DNA of 64,000 nt from Ochromonas danica. Its lineage: Eukaryota > Sar > Chrysophyceae > Chromulinales > Chromulinaceae. Numbering within the stretch: position 1 is the first letter of the stretch; each line of letters opens with the position of its first letter. The position numbers and the translations under genes were made by a program. The notes under the pieces were generated by a model. That model made no database searches and was not told the DNA's origin. It saw only the letters and a program-made list of their open reading frames with translations. This document shows, piece by piece, positions 3,069-37,852 of this stretch. The DNA lies in the NCBI GenBank assembly GCA_015146655.1, contig VKHL01000016.1, positions 196,752 through 260,751 on the forward strand. Reading direction: 5' to 3'.

Positions 3069-3613
3069 AACAAATGGCCAGTTGTAGCTTGTATATACGA
3101 TAACATGTTCTTCCTTAATATGCATATGCTGTACAAAGTTTTCACTTTTTGCACTCCCGCCAGTGTTATGTTGTAAGTGGTTCGGGGCATTAAGGTGGTT
3201 AATTTATGATGACAACCAGCCGATCGATTTCAATCAAAATTGGAGGCGCCAAGCAGTTGATGTTGAACGTTGAGCAACCGCCGCGATTTGAACCTGCAAA
3301 CAGCACACAGCACACGACACACAGCACACTCCTGGAAGTTGCCGTTCCGCGGGAAATATTCCGAACCCCCTCGGAAACTGCCCAGAATAGTCAATTTATT
3401 TCTCCAATTATTCGACTAAGACAACAAGAAAGATCGAGTTGTGGCTTGTTTGGCACCGCGCACCGCGCACACCTCCTCGCTGCGAGCTGGTGAAACTCTC
3501 TCTCTCTCTGAGTCTGAGAGACCGACACGGGACAGAGAAAGAGATTCGATGAATGAATGAATTACAACAGACTTTATCACAGTACCATAGCTGAAAATTA
3601 AATAATAAAGAAG
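3069..3613. other. Intergenic region, no gene seen
   Basis: Downstream of the coiled-coil gene and upstream of the RSH gene. It holds a CACA-rich tract (about 3300-3335) and a CT/GA-rich stretch (about 3493-3545) directly before the RSH start, probably part of its promoter or leader. No open frame here resembles a protein. Confidence 0.6.
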
Positions 3614-6346
3614 ATGATTCCTTCGTTAATAAATACTTGGAGAATGTTGATTTTTCTTGGATTGAGTTTGTTATTTACTCACCCTTTTCTTCTCTCTTCT
3701 TCCCGGCGAGGAGGAAGATTTGATCTTGGAAGAAGAATCACGAACAAAGTGGACTCTGACCAATATTCTTATGTACCCGATGAACTTTTAAATCACGGCA
3801 ATTATGAAGATGGAAGTCATTTGTGGTGGGAGTTGTTCAAACACAGTGACCATCGGGAAAAGCTGCCATCAGAAACCAGACAGGAATCTGACTCATCGTC
3901 CTCTCGCCTGCTTCCCTCCTTCCCTGCTGTCCCACGAGTGGGAGCCTGGAAAGTATTAGCGGAGCATGATAAAAAGGAAGCTGGGACGAAAGTTGAGCCG
4001 CAGCAGCAACCTGAAGGGGAGCCCCTCGTTTACCCTCCATCCCTTACCGATTATATGCTAGGTCATGTTGACCTGGATCAAGCTCACTTAGATAAAGTCG
4101 AAGAACTCTGGTCGATTGTTAGAAAACGTGGATCTATTCGCCATCTCTGCGAATCGGATCGAAGCCGAGTCTTCGAGGCGCTGAAGATATCTTACATTGG
4201 ACTCTGGGGCAAGAAGACGTCGAGGTCGTTGGAGGTTTCCATTAACCGTGCGACTGGTGTGGCAGCTGTCTTAGGAGAGTTGAGAGCCACTCCGGATGTT
4301 ATTTTGGCGGGAATTCTTCAAGAAGTTCTTCAAGATCTTGCGAGTCATGGAGACGGAAGAGTCTTAATTCCTGAGCTGCGCAGGCGTTTTGGGCATGACG
4401 TCCTTGATCTCTGTGCTAAGTACGCAGTGTTACCAAAATACATGGCTCGTACCGCTGTGTATACTCCTCTTCAAGCAGAGAACCAGTTGCAGATGATGGT
4501 TGTTTTTGCAGAGGACTATCGCGCATTGTATATTCGACTGGCGGATCGGTTGCACACTTTACGTGTTCTCCGAAAGCTTCCATTGGATGATGCAGAGCGA
4601 GTAAAGATTGCTGAAGAAGCACTTTATGTGTATGCGCCGTTAGCACACCGTATGGGTGTTATGAAGGTGAAGGGAGAGCTGGAAGATCTTGCTTTCCGTG
4701 TGCTGGAGCCGGAAATGTTTCAGCGCACTCGATACACTCAAATTGCTGCCAACAAGGCTTACCATGAAGCTGCCGAGCAGATCAAAGAACTTATTTCCAA
4801 TGATTCCGTTCTCACATCTCAGAATGCTTCTCTTAAGCTGACATTTCGAATCAAGGACAAGTACCAACTATACCTCAAGATGCGTAGGAAGGGATTGTCA
4901 AGTCCTAGTGATGTTCGCGATGCTTTGGGCTTGAGATTGATTATTGACCTGCCTCGTAGTACATGTGGTGGAAAAGAGGAACAGTCTTCTTCGCAAGCTG
5001 TTGGAGAGCATCTCATGCGTGGCCAGAGTTTGTGTTACTACATCGTGGAGCGTCTGCGCAGTATGGCCGGCTGGGAGCCTGCCCCCAATGGCTTCAAAGA
5101 TTATATCCGGGGAGTCAAATCAAATGGATATTCCTCTCTTCATCAATATATTCGTAATCGCGGTACGGGGACCAATGTTGAAGTGCAAGTCCGTACGCGC
5201 GAAATGCACTTACAAGCTGAGTTAGGCGGTGCGGCACATTGGCATTACAAAGATCAGCTTTATCGGCCTGATATTGCTGCTTCTAAATTGTATCGTCTTG
5301 CATGGAGGTCTCCTCATCAGTTAGAAGCAAAGAGCGCTGCAGAGATGTTAGCTTTGGCTAAAGTTCAACTTCTGCGTGAGCGGGTCTTCGTCTTTTCCGA
5401 GGATCGCTCAACAGTTTTGAATCTGAAGAAGGGAGCTACTGCTTTGGATGCCGCCTTTGCTATTCACACAGATATTGGTCTGGCTACGAAACGCGTTTTA
5501 GTGAATGGGAAGGAGGTCAGATTAGGCCGTCCTCTGCAAAATGGAGAAGTCGTTTCGGTGGAGACTCATGCTGCTGCCACTCCAGCTGCTCGATTGTTCT
5601 GGTTGGGCATGGTGCGCACTTCCCATGCCCAATCAGCGTTGCGGAAGTTCTTCCGCGAGAATCATCTCGAAGAGGTGGTTTGCTTGGGCTTGACTATGTT
5701 GCTGTTAAGCGTCACTCTAAATGGATTTGGTCAATTTAAGGGGAAATTGGGCCATCAAAGGCAATCCTCTGATGCATCTAAGAGGCTTCTCGACGGACTA
5801 CGTCTTGCAAAGCTTGCTCGTGACCGTTGCGGGATGTCCTTCGACCATTTCTTGCAGTGTTTGACTCTCTCACCCAACCCGCAAGAAACACGAAGATTGC
5901 TGGGGCGGTACCTGGACTTGTCCTTCGAAGAAGTTCAAGTTGTTTCCAGTGACTCAGCATTTCAGTGGGCTAGACTGCAAGGATCTGAAGGATGGGAGGA
6001 TGATCTGACCCGGCAGAATGTTATCACACCTTTGCTAAATGATATCCTTCCTGCTGTTCCTGGATTGCAAACAGTGAAGAGTACTTGGGAGAGAATGATT
6101 GGGTCGCCCTCTCTTTCCAAGCCTAAACAATCTCCTCAGTTGGACGTCTTTGGAGCTCCAAGTCGGCCCATTATGGCTGGTGGAGGAATGGGTTTAAGAT
6201 ATTCATCTTCTAACATAGAGGAGAGCCTCATTCAACAGGCTCATCAACAAGCGATTTCACTCCGCCAGCTTGCGAAAGAGCATTACGCAGCTATACGTAG
6301 TCGACCTGTTGGTATGGAAATGGTTGGTGTTGAGGCTGGTCTATAA
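3614..6346 (+). CDS. RSH: RelA/SpoT homologue, (p)ppGpp synthetase with degenerate hydrolase domain
   Basis: A single exon of 910 residues. Residues about 10-30 are a strongly hydrophobic signal-type segment followed by an Arg/Ser-rich stretch, as expected for import into a complex plastid. The HD-type hydrolase region (about 200-345) keeps the fold motifs (LADRLHTLRVL, YAPLAHRMGVMKVKGELEDL), but the metal-binding His-Asp pair is Gln-Glu (LQEVLQDL, near residue 236) and the upstream His is missing, so ppGpp hydrolysis is probably lost. The synthetase domain (about 410-560) is intact: KDKYQLYLKM, RDALGLRLI with the catalytic Asp, KSNGYSSLHQ and EVQVRT with the catalytic Glu. A TGS domain follows (about 590-655), then a hydrophobic stretch near 690-710 that may be a membrane segment. 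Likely role: (p)ppGpp synthesis in the plastid stringent response. Family assignment is firm; loss of hydrolase activity is inferred from residues. Confidence 0.95.
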   Translation: MIPSLINTWRMLIFLGLSLLFTHPFLLSSSRRGGRFDLGRRITNKVDSDQYSYVPDELLNHGNYEDGSHLWWELFKHSDHREKLPSETRQESDSSSSRLLPSFPAVPRVGAWKVLAEHDKKEAGTKVEPQQQPEGEPLVYPPSLTDYMLGHVDLDQAHLDKVEELWSIVRKRGSIRHLCESDRSRVFEALKISYIGLWGKKTSRSLEVSINRATGVAAVLGELRATPDVILAGILQEVLQDLASHGDGRVLIPELRRRFGHDVLDLCAKYAVLPKYMARTAVYTPLQAENQLQMMVVFAEDYRALYIRLADRLHTLRVLRKLPLDDAERVKIAEEALYVYAPLAHRMGVMKVKGELEDLAFRVLEPEMFQRTRYTQIAANKAYHEAAEQIKELISNDSVLTSQNASLKLTFRIKDKYQLYLKMRRKGLSSPSDVRDALGLRLIIDLPRSTCGGKEEQSSSQAVGEHLMRGQSLCYYIVERLRSMAGWEPAPNGFKDYIRGVKSNGYSSLHQYIRNRGTGTNVEVQVRTREMHLQAELGGAAHWHYKDQLYRPDIAASKLYRLAWRSPHQLEAKSAAEMLALAKVQLLRERVFVFSEDRSTVLNLKKGATALDAAFAIHTDIGLATKRVLVNGKEVRLGRPLQNGEVVSVETHAAATPAARLFWLGMVRTSHAQSALRKFFRENHLEEVVCLGLTMLLLSVTLNGFGQFKGKLGHQRQSSDASKRLLDGLRLAKLARDRCGMSFDHFLQCLTLSPNPQETRRLLGRYLDLSFEEVQVVSSDSAFQWARLQGSEGWEDDLTRQNVITPLLNDILPAVPGLQTVKSTWERMIGSPSLSKPKQSPQLDVFGAPSRPIMAGGGMGLRYSSSNIEESLIQQAHQQAISLRQLAKEHYAAIRSRPVGMEMVGVEAGL

Positions 6347-7013: not shown

Positions 7014-8333
7014 TTAGTATTCATTTGCTCCACGTCCAACAGTCTTTTTAAGATCTTCTTCAGTGACTCCAGAATAAGTCTTTCCGCCGTGATAGCCAAC
7101 ATGGACTTTCGCTAAGATCTCCACCTGAGCATCCTTCGGTACGAGCTCAGGAGGAATCTCCACTCTCTCCACGATCTTAATACCCGAATTAACAATAGCG
7201 TCATACTTCATATCAGACATTGAAATAAAGCGATGGATCTTGGTCACTCCCAGCCAATGCAATGCATCAGGCATTAGGGCCTGGAAACGCGTATCAGTGA
7301 TTCCTGCCACATTTCTGGTGCAATTGAAGTACTCAGAGGCCTGATCTCCACCTTCAGCGCGCTTCCTCTTGTTATAAACTAAGTATTTGGTGACTTCGCC
7401 GAGGGAACGCCCTTCTTTGCGAAAGTAGACAACCAAACCACAGCCTCCTTGCTGAGCAGTGCGAATGCACTCTTCGATGGCATGGGCTAAATAAGGTCTG
7501 CAAGTACAAATATCAGACCCGAAAACATCCGAACCGTTACATTCGTCATGTACACGCACAGTGAGAGGAATATTTTCATCAGGGATAGTGGCAGGATCAC
7601 CCCACATGTAGATCGTCTCACCCCCAATTGGAGGCAGGAATAACTTTATGTCGTTGCGTGTTAAAAGCTCAGGATACATCATGTTTGTCTCCTTAAACAG
7701 AGCTTGACGAAGCTTTTGTTCAGAGCAACCAAAGCGCTCCGCCACTCCGGGAAGATACCACACATGCTCGATGGCAGCCTTGGTCACAACCGTCTGGCCA
7801 TCCTCTTTCAAGATGACACCATCTGGCTTCAGCCGCCCCGTCCTGAGCGCATCTTTCACTTCCGGGAAGTCGATATGAGCTTTGGTGACAGCGATTGTAG
7901 GACGAATATCGTATCCTTTCTGAAAGAAGGGCTCGAAGACACTGCGTACCATGTGGCCCCAAGGGTCGATGGTAACGATCTTCTTCGGGTCATACCAAGA
8001 AGGGAAAGGACCGAATTCATGAGTTGGATCAGTCTTTTGCAGATTGGGGACGTGGTCTGGATTGAGTTCGCCACTCGCCACAGCCAGCGCGGTGTAGATG
8101 CAATAACCTCCACCATGTGCACCGATCGCATTTCTTTGGCCGCCATGCTTGACAGTGGCTACCACAGGACCTCGTAGAAGAGGGTCAGGGTTACCCCATT
8201 GCATGGGAATGGGGTTGGACCCGAACTGTCCGTCATGTGTGGTCAATGAGATGTAGTCACAGGTGCCTCTCTCGGGCTCGTCGAGATCTTCCACTGCGAC
8301 AGAAGGCGCTCTCTTTCTCTTCTCTTCAGGCAT
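7014..8333 (-). CDS. URC1: GTP cyclohydrolase II-family protein, Urc1 (uracil catabolism) type
   Basis: A single exon of 439 residues starting at an ATG at 8333. The C-terminal half is a GTP cyclohydrolase II domain. The three zinc ligands appear as C-X10-C-X-C (Cys265, Cys276, Cys278, in DECNGSDVF..ICTCRPYL), followed by the active-site region VVYFRKEGRSLGEVTKYLVY. Riboflavin-type RibA enzymes have QEGRGIGL here; the GRSLG form and the long N-terminal region (about 240 residues, including HGGQRNAIGAHGGG) are those of Urc1, the protein required for the URC pathway of uracil degradation in fungi and bacteria. Predicted role: a GTP cyclohydrolase II-like step in pyrimidine catabolism. No targeting peptide is visible, so it is probably cytosolic. 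It lies head to head with eIF2B-delta. Confidence 0.88.
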   Translation of the reverse strand: MPEEKRKRAPSVAVEDLDEPERGTCDYISLTTHDGQFGSNPIPMQWGNPDPLLRGPVVATVKHGGQRNAIGAHGGGYCIYTALAVASGELNPDHVPNLQKTDPTHEFGPFPSWYDPKKIVTIDPWGHMVRSVFEPFFQKGYDIRPTIAVTKAHIDFPEVKDALRTGRLKPDGVILKEDGQTVVTKAAIEHVWYLPGVAERFGCSEQKLRQALFKETNMMYPELLTRNDIKLFLPPIGGETIYMWGDPATIPDENIPLTVRVHDECNGSDVFGSDICTCRPYLAHAIEECIRTAQQGGCGLVVYFRKEGRSLGEVTKYLVYNKRKRAEGGDQASEYFNCTRNVAGITDTRFQALMPDALHWLGVTKIHRFISMSDMKYDAIVNSGIKIVERVEIPPELVPKDAQVEILAKVHVGYHGGKTYSGVTEEDLKKTVGRGANEY

Positions 8334-8690
8334 TTCTTGGCTTGGCTATATTGAAATAATAATATCTATCTTGTTCTTTCTCTTGGTGCGTCTCTCTAAG
8401 GAGGGAGATGTTTCCTATGGCTCAGTGAATCTCGGTATCGAGAGATCTGGAATCGATTTTGAGCGCCAGTGCAGAGGGAAGAAGATCGGGGATTGTTCCT
8501 GTGAGGAGTTTGGTTGAGGTTCTGTGAAAGATCGCAGACACCACGCAGGCACACTTTCCCACAAATTCCATGGAATGCATGGTGGAAAGAAAAACTACTT
8601 CTTGTTCTGCAAGAGCGCGTTGGACGAGTTTGTCTCATCCAGCCCATCAATTCGTCGCTCTCTTCTCTCTCGTCTCATCGTCATCGAACA
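8334..8690. promoter_or_regulatory. Shared upstream region of URC1 and EIF2B4
   Basis: A 357-bp gap between two divergent start codons, so it should contain both promoters. It is rich in CT/GA tracts near each start. I see no clear TATA box or named operator. Confidence 0.5.
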
Positions 8691-18124: not shown

Positions 18125-19663
18125 ATGTCGTCTGCTCAGCAAATGTTGTGTGGAGGTAGGGCTATTCTTTTCTCAAGCATCTGCTAACCTAATTCTCTAG
18201 CAAAATTTCTTGACTGGAGCAGACGAGGTGAACGCCGTTGTGGTGGACCTGGGCAGCCAGTATTGCCGCTTTGGTACTGCGGGGCAGGACTCCCCCAGAC
18301 ACGTCTTCCGCAGCGTAAGTACTACAAATCCCACCTCATACAGCTCCTCTCTGTCCTCTGCTGACGGAGTGCCTCCAGGATATTGCCGTGAGTGGTGAGG
18401 AGAAGCGAGTGGGGGACAACTCCTTCCGCCTTGTGCGTGACCAACTGGAAGCCTATCCTCTGCAGTCCAGTGGTGAGATTCAACCTTTCTCTTTTCTTCA
18501 AAGCTTCTAGCCAATTCACTCATTCACTCTGTTGTGTGATTTGGATAGAGAGGAAGTGGGAAGACATCGAGTTGCTACTGCGCCACGGCCTGCAGCACTG
18601 CATGCGAGTGAACCCCGAAGACTACGCACTCATGCTGTCGCGAAACTGCCTCTTCTCTACTCAAGAAGATCTCCAACATATTCTGGAGATTTCGGTGGAG
18701 AGTCTCTCTGTGCCTGCAGTACAGGCCGTCTCATCGTCCACATTGAGTGCTTTCAGTGCTGGCAGGCCAACAGCGCTCGTGGTCGATCTGGGTGCCTCAG
18801 GTACTTCTGTCGAAGCTGTCATTGATGGGCATACTCTGCGTAGAACGGGTATTCGCTCGCAGGTGGGCGGTCAGTTCGTCGACCTCCTCCTCCTCCATCT
18901 ATTGCAGCAAGAAGGCTATGCAGTGCCGCAGCCATGGTTCTGCAAAACGGGTGCCACAGTACGCGACAGCTTTCGTTTCTTGCATGTGTTTGATATTGTG
19001 CGTGATCTAAAGCACTCGCTGAGCCGAGTGAGTGGTGCCAGCGATGACTATGAGTTACCCGATGGCACGGTGGTTCCCTCATCTTCAACTGCTTTCGCAG
19101 AGCTTTGCGAACAAGCCTACTTTCCTTCTAGTCGATCACCGCAGGCCTCGGTGCTCTTACAAACCTATATTGACCACTCACTGAGCAAAGCTCACTATTT
19201 ATCTCTTGCCAATGCCGCTTCCTCCTCCTCCTCCGCTGGGACTGCCATGGATGTCAACAGAGAGCAGGGTTCCGGACAGCGGAAGCGCAGTCGATCACTG
19301 TTGGAAAGGCCGCTTGAAGCCTTGCGGCCAGAGGCCGAATCTTTGTCAGATCTTATCTATTGCTCGCTTGCGCGGTCTGACAGCGACTACCGCAAAGACT
19401 TGGCAGCCAATATGCTTGTGGTGGGTGGGTGCTCTTTAGCGGAGGGTTTACTGCCTCGCTTACAGAGTGAAATATCTGATATCATGCCTTCCCATGTCAA
19501 GCTTCGTGTCTGCAATCAGCTGGCCACTGAGCGTCAACATGCAGCCTGGTTGGGTGGATCTGTTCTGAGCATTTGCGGCTCCTTCCACCAGCTTTGGGTG
19601 AGTCGACAAGAGTACGAAGAGCAAGGTGCGTCGCGTCTAGTGCAGAGTCGCTTTCTTCGTTAG
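18125..19663 (+). CDS. ARP4: Actin-related protein 4 (ACTL6/BAF53 type)
   Basis: Proposed exons 18125-18155, 18220-18314, 18379-18472 and 18549-19663; introns of 64, 64 and 76 nt; 444 residues. The first acceptor is set at 18219 because it joins MSSAQQMLCG to ADEVNAVVVDLGSQYCRFGT, matching the Arp4 start (GGDEVxAxVxDxGS); another AG at 18200 does not keep frame. The actin fold is complete: TALVVDLGASGTSVEAVIDG (phosphate 2), LVVGGCSLAEGLLPRLQSE, and the end ERQHAAWLGGSVLSICGSFH followed by QLWVSRQEYEEQGA, which matches human ACTL6A closely. A Ser-rich and basic insertion lies before LIYCSLARSD. Arp4 is a nuclear subunit of INO80, SWR1, BAF and NuA4-type chromatin complexes. Confidence 0.93.
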
Positions 19664-20409: not shown

Positions 20410-23230
20410 CTAATGGCCTCCACCTTCCATACGATATCCAGGCCAGTCCGAGGGTGCCTCTCCGTTATGCTCGTCGATCACCTCGAGAAGATGCTTGCTA
20501 GGACCATCCGTGTTCCTGGACTGCCTCAAGAGGTCGTTAAAGACTGTTTTGGCAGTTGTCCAGTCACCCTTAATGAAGGCAATGATACCATTCTCCCAGC
20601 TGGCACGGAAAGCGTCGCTGACTTTGTGGCGCAGCTCGACCACGTCGGGATCCTCAGTCCAGACCTGCTGTGTATAGGGGGGCAACTTCACGGTGGGAGT
20701 CTGTCTTGCTTTTACCTTGCGGGCTTCTTCAATATCCTCGGCCTCTTTGTTTTCTGCCGATAAGAGTTCAGATGACTCGTCCAGCGCCGGCATATGATGC
20801 TGACCAACTGAACGCATTCCCACGACATGGTTTGGGTGGTGAAGAGCTGAAGTTCTTCTCACAGAGGCACGATGATGACCGTAAGCATGGTGACCATGTT
20901 GTGCTCGTAGACTGTTGAGAGTGTTCAGTAAGCCTGGTACCTGATTAGATCTTCTGCGAGGTGCGAAACTCGCAGCCGAGGCGGCACTGGATTCACCTGT
21001 TGCGATTCCAAGGGAGGCCATTTGATCAGATGTCATATTGGTCACTTTCTTAGCAGCAGCAATGAGACGGGCTTTTGGGTCCTTTCTTTGATTGCGGTAA
21101 GGATCATTCCAATTGATGGACAGATCTGTGTCATAAGTATAAAGTCCCATAGGTTCTTCCAACATGCTTCGACGAATACGATCAACTTGTCGACAGTATT
21201 TTGAAGCTGCGGGAGAAAGAAGTTGGAAAAATGGTTCGGACATGAGCAAGCTCACCCCATAGCCTTTAGTGCTAGATTCCAGGAACTCAGCAGCATTGAC
21301 ATGAGGCGAAAGATATGAAGCATCTATCTTGCGGTTGCTTCCAATCGCACCTTCAATAGCCCACCCTACATGCAATCCAGCACCTACCCACGACAAAAAA
21401 AGAGATCAGGATTACGATGGCAAGAAGTAGAAGCACGCATGAAGACTTACCAATACGAACATTGTACTTTGGAAATCTCTGATATAAGCGAGCATTTGCA
21501 TTCGCAGAGAAGTTACAGATAAACTCTTGATACCTTGAGAGCTCGATAAAGGCCTTGACGAAGGTTAGTAACGCCTGGTCAGCAAGAGCAGCGATTTGAT
21601 CAGGAGAAAACTTGTCATCAATTTTCCAAGTAAGCAAAAAGGCATCGCCAATATTTTTATTAGCGGCCCCAGAACATTGTACCACGATGGAATGCAGAAT
21701 GTGCGCAATCCGATTGACAAAAAGCATGACTTCCTCCTGCAGGCATTCAGTCGTATCTGTGAACTGACGTACATCACAAAAGCCGAAGATAGAATGAATC
21801 ATTGTACCAGATCCCATGAGGTTTAATCTACCGCCAGAAGAATCCGCAAGATTTTTAGCAATAATAGATGCTCCTGCCTCACCGAAACCGACTCGCATCA
21901 AACCACCAATTTTCGTAATAGTAGTTAGTAAGATTGTCGTTTCCATGCCGTCCAAGAAGCCTTCCTTGGCTCCTAACATCTTGTATTCTACGCCCAGAGG
22001 ATTGGCAGAGATTTTGCGAACGAGCTCCACAAGGCGCTCAATAGGTCCAATCACAAGCTTGTTCACATCGGAAGAGAAAATGTAAATACCACTTAATAGC
22101 AAGACGATAATAAAAGAAGTCGCGTAGATACTGAAGAGAGCCGATTGAACCGAAGTGTGCTTCTGGTCAAAAGCCATGTAGGTATATAGTCCACTGCTTT
22201 CAAGTTCATACTCAACTCTCTCCACAGGTCGTAAATCATTGAAGCGGTCGTCAAAATAGTTAGTCACATCATCGAAGCGAATTACTAAAACCTTCAATTC
22301 ATTATGTACGACCTGGAGCGCAAGATTCAGGCCATCACTGTAAGTTGCAGGATCAGATCCATTGAGAACAGCAAGCCGATGCACCAACTGCACAGCGAGC
22401 GAGTTGGATATGTCTGGATCGTCGACAGTCAGCAGAGGAATGATGATAAGCATAAGCAAAATAAGGATAAGAACTCTTCGACTTGTAAGATCGGACATGG
22501 CGGCACCGACTTTAGACTCCGCTGGAGGTTCATCCTCGGCGAGATCGTCTTTCCCTTCCTCCGCCTGCGCAGCTTTGATGGCTTTGCGCTTCCGCATCTC
22601 CAAGCTCGAAGAAGCATATCGATATAGCTTCATCATTCTCACCAATCGCACCATTCGAACAAGGCGCACAATGCGGCTGGCACGACTTCCAGAAGAAGAA
22701 GCTTGTCCAGCCTTCGCAGACCTAACGTTCGCTCCAGAAATTGTGTTGTAATTACTCTCCCCCAACATCCACTGCATTTCAAAAATTAAGGAAGCACAAG
22801 CAATACAGTCAAGCCAAAAATAGAAGGAGCCCACTTGCACTCGACGATACCAAGTCTCCCACCACATCTCGTCTTGTTCCGCTTCCCATTTAGGGATCGC
22901 AAAATAATCATCTTTATAGAAACTCTGCAAGAAAATTTCAAAGAGAAAGAGGAAAAACACAATGGAGATAACGGCTTCGAAACCGGTGTCAGCATCTTTA
23001 GAGGTAGCGGATAGGCGAATATCGGTCTGGTAGAGCGCCCAGATTGTTAGGATGATCATCACCACGGAAAAGATGTAATGCTCTCCAACGAGCTCAGCGA
23101 AAGCGCGAGCTTTCGCCCACTTGACGTCTTCGACTTGTTCTTCATTATCTTCCTCTTTTTCTGCATCCGCCTCAGAGGGGCGATACTGATGCGTCAGCAG
23201 CCTAGGATCTCTGCCACCTCCTCCGTTCAT
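20410..23230 (-). CDS. Voltage-sensor-like membrane nucleotide (adenylate/guanylate) cyclase
   Basis: Exons (minus) 23230-21451 and 21383-20410, a 67-nt phase-1 intron; 917 residues. The N-terminal half looks like a six-span channel subunit: S1 near 50-66, S2 near 84-101, S3 near 135-152, and an S4-like helix at about 183-204 with a basic residue at every third place (RASRIVRLVRMVRLVRMMK). Two more spans lie at about 252-268 and 366-386, with about 100 residues between them and no potassium-selectivity GYG motif. A HAMP-like segment (about 390-412) leads to a class III cyclase domain (about 475-620): FGFCDVRQFTDTTE with the first metal Asp, ANKNIGDAFLLTW with the second, and across the intron RIGAGLHVGWAIEGAIGS. 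The rest is a 300-residue cytosolic tail. Fusions of a channel-like region to an adenylate cyclase are known in ciliates and apicomplexans. Substrate (ATP or GTP) cannot be fixed by eye. Confidence 0.9.
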
Positions 23231-35587: not shown

Positions 35588-37098
35588 TTATCGCTTATGA
35601 ACTTTCTCTGCTTTCATGTTTTGAATTTCAATGCATAGAAACTCGGCTAGTTCGGGCCGATTCTGAAGGAGGATGGACAGATTTTGCCCCTTCAGATGAA
35701 GAATTCCTTCAGCTGGTACCAAAATACCAGCCGAAGAATGGTTAGCATACATGGCGCGGCGATGATCGCTTGTAGCGGAGCGGGTCTGTACAGTAGCCGA
35801 AAATGGCTTGATATAGATCGAGTTGGTCCGACGCTGCGGCCGAGGTGCGCTAGGTTTAGCATCCAGCACGAGACTTTTCTGAACAGCTCCCAACACGCTA
35901 TGGTGGTCTTCTACGGCAAGGATAGAACCGTCAGCTTGAGCCAGCGTTTCTTTGCTGATGACATTGCTAATCATCTACAGACAAGTCAAAGAAATTTTGT
36001 CAGCCAATCTAGAATGGTCAGTTGAAATTTTATTACCACGGAGCTACTGGCATCTTTTTGTTCATTTTTTGGAGAAGCGTAGTCAACAAACTGGTCGTGC
36101 ATCCAATGTGCTAGAAAAGTATCCGAAAATAATCCTGACCCGAATAGATTCAAAGATCCAGCAAAATGTGTCAAGGTATGACTGCGGTTGTTACGCACAA
36201 GCCGTTGGGTGCGGTCACTATCGTTTACAGCCTTCCACATGTACAGTAGCAGCGCTTTTATTTTGTTCTCCGCTGTCACCGAAGCGGGAAGATCTCTGTA
36301 CGCTACAAAGGACATGTAGGTAAGTGCTCGAAGAAACAATTCTGATGTAAGACCTGCTTCACGTGGTCCATCGACGTGCAAGGGAGCAAGGTTGAGAAAG
36401 ATTTCGCCAACTTGCACAGCTGTTAGAAGAGAAGTAGACTTCAAATTGAAATCATAGCAAAATTGCATGTACTCCTTGTAAGAAATCACATCCCTTTGTC
36501 CCTTCACAGTCTCTTGCAGCTGTGTCAGTACGGCTGTCTTCCTCTCCTGCAGCCTCGAAGTTTCTGCATTCGTTAGAGCCCGCAGGTCCTTGTGCCGCAT
36601 CTTCTCAGCAGCTACTATTGCATTGCGTCGTTTCTCAGCTCTGTCTAGATAGTAATGAAATATGTTCATCAAGCACTTTCCATAGGTTTCTTTCAAGACA
36701 TGATTGGCAGCTGTATCATCAAGATCATACACTTCCATACTGGGCACTCGCCGGTTAGCTAATACAAGGACATTTTCAAGAAGCAGTCTTTTTACAGCAA
36801 TCTCAGAATGGTCCTTAGAGTGAATCTTGGCAGCAAAAAGATCGAGCAAACATAGAAAATCCGCAAAAGTAATCATCACTCCAACGGTCTCAACTGCTAC
36901 GTTCTCTTTTGTTTTCAGAAATCGAGCAACCTCTAATTCCACCGCAGTCCCAGGCATTCGCTTTGAAACAATTTGGCAATCTTTGCAAAAGCGGAGAAAT
37001 ACTGCTGGACGCATCTGTTCAGGTTGGCTGGGATCAGAATGCAAAGAATAGAAAGTGAAGATCCGCCATAATTCTTGTTCTATTGAATTATAGAGCAT
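35588..37098 (-). CDS. Conserved-looking helical protein, function unknown
   Basis: Exons (minus) 37098-36037 and 35974-35588, a 62-nt phase-0 intron; 482 residues. It starts MLYNSIEQELWRIFTFYSLH. The first 350 residues are mostly helical and contain LTSELFLRALTYMSFVAYRD, an F-x-x-A-L-x-x-x-x-x-x-A-Y pattern that occurs in EF-hand-derived repeats of many flagellar and protist proteins, and an earlier SYKEYMQFCYDFNL of similar type. The C-terminal exon is Ser-rich and ends with a Leu-rich segment (GQNLSILLQNRPELAEFLC). No signal or membrane span. A cytoskeletal or ciliary role is possible but unproven. Confidence 0.72.
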
Positions 37099-37852
37099 GA
37101 TCTAAAGTTTTAAATTTATTTCTGCTGTCTGAATGTTCTGAACAGAGCACTAAAACGGGTGCCGGGGTGTGTGTGAAAAAGAAACGGGCGAACGCAAATC
37201 CAGAAATCTTCAGCGGCAATGGATTTTTATGCTAAATTGCAATTTTTACTGCGAACGTCTCACTCACGGTGGTTCGAATGGTACGGAGAGACTTTTTTGT
37301 TGATATTTTAAGAGGCATGGTGTTTTTCAGCGTATCTCGGAATTCAAGATTCCTGAAGGCAGATATTAAATTATATCGCGCAGATTGTGGTTAAGAGATA
37401 TTTGGTGGGGAACATGAGTGGGGTAGGTGAAATTTACACGAGCAGTGGTTCTGGTGGTCAATAGGACTAAAGAGATGAAATTGCTTTGAGTTTGAATTGT
37501 GTGTGGTGTGGTCTGCGTTTTGTCGACCTCTGAAATTAATTGATCGCATCGTGATCACTGACAACAGCTCAGAGTGTGAAGATGCTGATGAAACCAGTTC
37601 TGAGAAGAGAGGGCGGTTCATGTCCTTCTGCGATTTCAAGATCAGTGTAAAGTGGCTGCGAATGGCGAGGGGGCGCCATGATTGTAACTTAGCTGAGATA
37701 GTAATGTTAACCCAGGAGCTCATCAAAAGAGTTTTGTTCAGTTTCATTTATTACACCAGTTTCTCTCCATCGGTGGGGTTAAATAGTTGGATGGATAGCT
37801 TAGTTAAGTTAACAGGTGGTTGCTTAGGAGATAAAAACTCAAGTCAGACTAA
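37099..37852. other. Intergenic region, no convincing gene
   Basis: 754 bp between two minus-strand genes. Overlapping frames on both strands at about 37391-37886 have no ATG in a good context and no family resemblance. Probably promoter of the downstream gene and 3' region of the upstream one. Confidence 0.45.

Follow-up and report, generated by a model that had tools for sequence, protein, structure and literature searches.

In the channel-adenylyl cyclases known from Paramecium, Tetrahymena and Plasmodium (Weber et al. 2004), a class III cyclase is preceded, according to the available part of the literature on them, by a voltage sensor and six membrane spans. In the accessible part of its text, a 2025 paper on Phytophthora reports voltage-sensor cyclases of stramenopiles and alveolates without homology to pore helices (PMC12223298). 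Two of the Phytophthora proteins (PPTG_13136/13761) are 38.75% identical and come from one organism, and one of the two is flagellar according to immunostaining (PMC12223298). Here we describe a gene from Ochromonas danica, located in a 64,000-nucleotide stretch of contig VKHL01000016.1 (positions 196,752 to 260,751), which we call the window. Its product shares with the Phytophthora proteins an Ion_trans-type sensor, the absence of pore-helix homology and a class III cyclase, and therefore has the architecture of the PPTG_13136-type family; like the channel-adenylyl cyclases, it has a sensor and six spans before the cyclase. The bare architecture is not novel because it was described for Phytophthora. 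What is new is that the cyclase carries only half of an active site, and that a sister type encoded in the same genome carries the complementary half. The gene product is probably subunit A of a voltage-sensing class III adenylate cyclase composed of two proteins, in which a heterodimer of A and B would hold a single complete site for the formation of cyclic AMP (cAMP).

Gene structure and catalytic residues

The gene is located on the minus strand at window positions 23230..20410, in agreement with a preliminary description of the window. Its two exons, once joined, comprise 917 codons without an internal stop. Coding exon 1 (21451..23230) begins with an ATG at 23230 and contains, in an open frame, residues 1-593 and the first base of codon 594. 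It is followed by a 67-bp phase-1 intron with GT..AG borders (GTAAGT..TAG, 21384..21450), across which homologs are continuous, and by coding exon 2 (20410..21383), which encodes residues 594-917 and the stop codon TAG. The exons belong to one gene rather than two, a point the preliminary description had singled out for checking, because homologs run across the splice junction, around which G594, G596 and L597 are identical in all 120 listed homologs. Counts of homologs given here refer to the best 120 of 432 matches of the window-gene type (type A), the best 120 of 646 of the sister type (type B, listed from a search with the paralog on contig C24), and the best 120 of 139 phosphodiesterase relatives; each search scored about 8000 candidates.

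The active site of class III cyclases forms at a dimer interface, to which one chain contributes the metal-binding residues and the other the residues that bind the base and stabilize the transition state. The cyclase domain of the window protein is encoded partly by exon 1 (21451..21793, from Pfam and alignments) and partly by exon 2 (21214..21383, from alignments), and matches Pfam Guanylate_cyc (PF00211) at residues 484-650 with an E-value of 1.3e-5, above the cut-off. Its catalytic residues were placed by alignment with CyaC (1wc1), and we take their metal, purine and transition-state roles to be those of CyaC and animal cyclases. Exon 1 encodes the metal-binding aspartates D486 (21773-21775) and D529 (21644-21646) and the purine-binding lysine K525 (21656-21658). 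Exon 2 encodes S616, a serine at the threonine position, the asparagine N623 (21295-21297), and F627 (21283-21285), a phenylalanine at the position expected to hold the transition-state arginine. Both metal aspartates of the class III domain are present in 120/120 listed A homologs. The pairing of asparagine and arginine in the same chain, as in homodimeric enzymes, is lacking: the asparagine is retained in 99 of the 120 proteins and has drifted in 21, and the arginine position is occupied by phenylalanine (68), tyrosine (51) or threonine (1), and never by arginine. The domain had previously been taken to be complete, which it is not. Because half of its active site is degenerate, A alone probably cannot make a cyclic nucleotide.

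Complementary sister cyclases

The 31.2-Mb assembly (337 contigs), which was searched for paralogs, contains one A gene and two B genes, located on contigs C24 (L019:2244-4892) and C141 (L020:1944-6453). Both B genes have asparagine in place of the second metal aspartate, within the sequence GNAF, and have kept the transition-state arginine. Types A and B were compared at the catalytic positions in one joint alignment of 120 + 120 proteins. The position of the second metal aspartate is D in 120/120 A, and N in 109 and Q in 11 of the listed B; the arginine is found in 0/120 A versus 120/120 B. Type B also retains the asparagine and has threonine at the threonine position (120/120 each), and the base-binding lysine is kept in all 240 proteins. 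A motif scan with regular expressions agreed with the joint alignment wherever it could be read, one or both motifs being unread in 5 of the 240, which rules out that the arginine position was mis-called. Complementary halves of the C1/C2 type are thus encoded in one genome, and since they are reciprocal, A-A and B-B dimers would each lack an essential part of the site, whereas an A-B dimer would be complete.

Two other explanations of the missing arginine have to be considered. Type A could be a homodimeric cyclase in which a different residue or substrate geometry stabilizes the transition state, so that A alone would convert voltage into cAMP. The invariance of both metal aspartates, the purine lysine and much of the catalytic core in 120/120 A fits such an enzyme, and an arginine two residues past the first metal aspartate, R488, could in principle substitute, as it is conserved in 120/120 A and replaced by H, L, Y or M in B. 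However, the distribution of the canonical arginine, accompanied by the reciprocal loss of aspartate in B, and the drift of the asparagine in A make this explanation unlikely. Alternatively, A could be a regulatory pseudo-cyclase that binds nucleotide or partners and has no catalytic part, with the product made by another protein. The disappearance of the arginine from every listed A would agree with this, but the metal residues remained invariant although they would have been free to drift, and B homodimers, without the second metal aspartate in 120/120, should be inactive too. We therefore regard a pseudo-cyclase as very unlikely and retain the complementary A-B pair as the preferred reading.

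In a cyclase-domain tree sampled with 26 tips of type A and 35 of type B, one of the latter a duplicate, A is monophyletic at 0.87 and B at 0.91. The tree was rooted with a single tip, C67, a guanylate-type cyclase of the same genome with motifs read as the usual D, D, E, N, R, and tests whether each type is a clade, not whether A and B are nearest relatives. Since each type is monophyletic, the losses of catalytic residues appear few and old. As both types occur in Cyclotella and in chrysophytes, these losses probably took place before diatoms and chrysophytes diverged. Besides the window genome, A and B were both listed for GSChrysophyte H1, GSChrysophyte H2, Cyclotella cryptica (its B assigned by the prefix CCRYP) and one dataset with 'gene..._t' names, in tallies by name or naming style that leave out transcriptome entries without a species. 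GSChrysophyte H1 and H2 each have one A and two B listed, as in the window genome. Only B was listed for Ochromonadaceae CCMP2298, Ectocarpus, Symbiodinium, Thalassiosira exigua and one 'Minuto...' source, which says little because only the best 120 of 432 A matches were listed. No relative was confirmed in viral contigs, where none of 42 pattern matches was upheld by tblastn. A fusion of A and B was considered as direct proof of pairing and given up, as the scan for double cyclases yielded only P0001 (1352 residues). This protein contains two type A cyclase domains in tandem, possibly from neighbouring genes merged by annotation.

Voltage-sensor domain

Five strong membrane stretches were identified by hydropathy (S1, S2, S3, and spans 5 and 6), together with two weaker peaks within the cyclase. 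The charged S4 helix was seen in the structure model (helices 174-194 and 197-224) between the third and fourth hydrophobic stretches. The six-span layout of the preliminary description therefore follows from the five hydrophobic stretches plus the modelled S4 helix. The model of A ends at residue 593 and covers exon 1 only; the model of B is that of P0121, a near twin of the C24 gene, and begins within the sensor region. S1 comprises residues 52-75 (23006..23077, from hydropathy and the model), S2 residues 78-105 including F95 and E98 (22916..22999, from conservation in A homologs and the model), and S3 residues 136-149 including D141 (22784..22825, from conservation and the model). The structural comparison that had been proposed for this region revealed a four-helix S1-S4 bundle, as in proteins with a voltage-sensor domain (VSD), and modelled residues 35-206 match the sensor domains of Nav, NavAb, Kv and Ci-VSP. 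The Pfam Ion_trans match covers only the S1-S4 part of that family (E-value 1.5e-5) and, at 24.7 bits, narrowly misses the curated cut-off of 25.

The S4 ladder (residues 183-205, 22616..22684, from the pattern, conservation and the model) has eight basic residues in register at every third position, R183, R186, R189, R192, R195, R198, K201 and R204. The pattern had been recognized before, with a count of seven. Chance was ruled out as its source, because no in-register basic run was longer than six in 2000 shuffles of the protein, which preserved composition only. In Kv channels, a phenylalanine and a glutamate of S2 and an aspartate of S3 serve in charge transfer. These residues are present in the window protein and, among the 64 or 65 A homologs that cover the region, E98 is conserved in 64/64, F95 in 63/64 (64/65 and 63/65 in the joint alignment) and D141 in 63/65. 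At least five basic residues of the ladder are present in 58 of the 64 A homologs with S2-S4 covered, and three in the remaining 6/64. Almost every A and B member that covers the S2 glutamate, S3 aspartate and S4 ladder retains them. Sequence and model together support S1-S4 as a real VSD in a protein that lacks a pore loop of the channel type.

Spans 5 and 6 and the coupling helix

Span 5 (residues 240-267, 22430..22513) and span 6 (residues 357-409, 22004..22162), both placed by hydropathy and the model, enclose an external folded segment (residues 268-356, 22163..22429, from the model). The preliminary description had noted a linker of about 100 residues at this place; the external segment is indeed large, but it has about 89 residues and is folded. 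It was modelled as alpha-alpha-beta-beta-alpha-beta-beta, with block values of the predicted local distance difference test (pLDDT) of 91-94 over residues 281-360, and has no Pfam match. Span 6 continues into the cytoplasm as one modelled helix up to residue 409, followed by a helix at residues 429-463 and the cyclase. The model suggests that the part from span 5 on is similar to a receptor cyclase with two spans, attached after a voltage sensor.

This resemblance raises the possibility that S1-S4 is a structural relic and that the true input is a ligand of the external domain. The confident prediction of that domain and the two-span receptor layout would suit a ligand-driven enzyme, as would the short S4 ladders of a few A members. 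Nevertheless, almost all A and B that cover the sensor residues have preserved them, and all listed phosphodiesterase relatives have five or six in-register basic residues, so we judge a relic sensor improbable and continue to favour a functional VSD.

The helix at residues 429-463 (21842..21946), which we call the coupling helix, was identified by conservation and by the model with low pLDDT, and contains GFGEAG at residues 448-453. The motif GFGxAG follows span 6 in 118/120 listed A and 117/120 listed B, and in 0/120 listed phosphodiesterase relatives. PF26726, which is precomputed on nearly all listed homologs and absent from the local Pfam matches of the window protein, seems to sit around the coupling helix according to a rough mapping from truncated homologs. 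The GFG itself (residues 448-450, 21881-21889), placed by its location after span 6 and not by alignment to the alveolate motif, may be the counterpart of the GXG of alveolate cyclases that was described as a pore motif. In the available accounts, the channel-adenylyl cyclases have a K+ channel pore with GXG after transmembrane domain 6 (TMD6), whereas the GFG of the window protein is at this place part of the predicted coupling helix. If the alveolate proposal applied here, the window protein would be an ion channel carrying a cyclase, with its pore motif after span 6. The conservation of GFGxAG in A and B would be in line with this, as would the alveolate fusions reported with GXG after TMD6 in the accessible part of PMC3283738. 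However, the region from S5 to S6 (residues 240-386) contains no G-x-G, as had been noticed before, and hence no pore loop with the filter motif of voltage-gated cation channels. Furthermore, the S5-S6 segment was modelled as a folded alpha/beta unit and not as a re-entrant loop, the GFG is within a helix predicted, with low model confidence, just before the cyclase, and the Phytophthora members lack pore-helix homology according to the available text (PMC12223298). A channel thus appears hardly credible, and a pore-less voltage sensor remains the preferred interpretation. The preliminary description drew a contrast with ciliate and apicomplexan cyclases from the missing selectivity filter and the large external linker, but a pore-less architecture was already known from stramenopiles and alveolates.

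The C-terminal part of the protein contains a segment conserved among A homologs (residues ~840-911, 20431..20646), with GDW..A, DGPS and AP..W.GYR; the matching segment of the B model is helical.

A voltage-sensor phosphodiesterase and neighbouring genes

On contig C11, the same genome also encodes a protein in which an N-terminal module of related sequence (29% identical to P0003 over its residues 36-265) is followed by a PDEase_I domain (E-value 9.4e-41). The sequence extends from C11:34947 (L014:1435-3588, L021:1882-4035) and corresponds to an annotated 864-residue Ochromonas danica protein, P0241, to which a paralog from the assembly is 100% identical over 95% of the query. Each of the 120 listed relatives has five or six basic residues in register somewhere in its chain; 96 of them have a precomputed PDEase_I domain, and the other 24 look like N-terminal fragments. 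Relatives are also present in the dinoflagellates Polarella and Effrenium. One voltage-sensor phosphodiesterase, P0242, is 62% identical to that of Ochromonas and bears the source label 'archaeon', which probably reflects a misassigned eukaryotic contig. A 2023 review has a figure legend that claims to include all VSD proteins reported (channel-cyclases, VSP, sNHE and Hv1), and the word 'phosphodiesterase' is absent from its available text (PMC10651576).

On the plus strand of the window, an actin-family protein (18392-19660; Pfam Actin, E-value 1.8e-61) is encoded about 0.7 kb past the 3' end of the cyclase gene, and a RelA/SpoT-type protein with HD, RelA_SpoT and TGS domains (3602-6343) adjoins a minus-strand GTP cyclohydrolase gene (7017-8345). 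On the minus strand, positions 35989-37101 give a weak p25-alpha match (E-value 3.5e-4), slightly below the curated cut-off. No tRNA genes were found within the 64-kb window.

Proposed mechanism

Based on the residues and models described above, a mechanism of voltage-controlled cAMP production can be proposed. Each subunit would consist of an S1-S4 sensor, a module of two spans with an external domain between them, a coupling helix and half a cyclase. A would provide the metal-binding half (D486 and D529), and B, from C24 or C141, the base-binding lysine and threonine and the transition-state asparagine and arginine, so that the A-B heterodimer alone would have one full active site. The lysine and threonine of B would select ATP as the substrate and cAMP as the product. 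S4 presumably moves with the membrane potential, possibly together with the binding of a ligand to the external domain, and span 6 and the coupling helix would relay the signal to the catalytic interface of A and B, which would open or close in response, whichever the direction of the voltage effect. The preliminary description had suggested production of cAMP or cGMP controlled by voltage without an ion pore. The sequences and models are still best read as pointing to cyclic nucleotide production under voltage control, and a pore-less sensor is supported, although A, with its half site, would not accomplish this alone.

Several observations weigh against this mechanism. Foldseek found no match to the window model at an E-value of 0.001 or better (best 1.6e-2). 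Some A sensors need not respond to voltage, because 6/64 have only three in-register basic residues. K525 and S/T616 stay conserved in A even though a metal-side half would not need them, and the first metal aspartate is retained in 118/120 B (E in 2); therefore, either the second pseudo-site retains a role or A homodimers are partly active. Since A and B form two clades, their residue pattern represents a few ancestral changes and not 240 independent ones. Finally, no natural A-B fusion was present among the 360 listed proteins scanned for double cyclases.

We speculate, as a possibility that falls somewhat short of an even chance, that flagellates of the ochrophytes, and probably of stramenopiles and alveolates more widely, have a membrane-voltage cAMP switch. 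One shared sensor module would be attached to three enzymes: a metal-half cyclase and an arginine-half cyclase, active only as a heterodimer, and a phosphodiesterase that degrades the same messenger. The GXG 'pore' of alveolates would then be a coupling helix. If such a switch exists, a single active site is under the control of a pair of independent voltage sensors and of two external domains, and the broken catalytic site of a conserved family of voltage-sensor cyclases is explained. Each subunit should be inactive alone and active together with the other. Flagellated cells would control cAMP electrically, making it with a pair of proteins and removing it with a third that has a similar sensor, and the pair would be a natural voltage-to-cAMP tool. 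The proposal also opens to direct test the older claim that cyclases of protists act as ion channels.

Comparison with known systems

Animal membrane adenylyl cyclases have C1 and C2 halves, of which one contains the metal aspartates and the other the base-binding and transition-state residues. Both halves belong to one chain without a voltage sensor, whereas A and B are separate voltage-sensor proteins. Ci-VSP is a lipid phosphatase without additional spans or an external domain. In the protist literature consulted, which excluded preprints and most subscription journals, we recognized neither a voltage-sensor phosphodiesterase nor a heterodimeric voltage-sensor cyclase. No such proteins are described in the available parts of PMC12075863, on a Neospora channel, and PMC8584932. 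The word 'cyclase' does not occur in the accessible text on Kv diversity (PMC7576140) or in an oomycete flagellar proteome (PMC3471859), and neither 'cyclase' nor 'phosphodiesterase' occurs in a 2012 review of voltage-controlled enzymes (PMC3440755).

The main text of the Phytophthora paper, considered without its supplements, has no occurrence of dimers, heterodimers or active sites (PMC12223298). We predict that its two proteins are natural candidates for an A-B pair. In Phytophthora infestans, nearly all cyclic-nucleotide genes are expressed mostly in sporangia and zoospores, according to the available part of PMC5322657.

By analogy, the closest functional precedent is provided by the RGC1/2-NeoR heterodimers of chytrids, for which the following is taken from the accessible part of PMC7655827. 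They consist of two sensor-cyclase proteins that are active only together, and one common subunit has two partners, comparable to the one A and two B of Ochromonas danica. They were also predicted to guide zoospores. They differ from the system proposed here in sensing light and producing cGMP.
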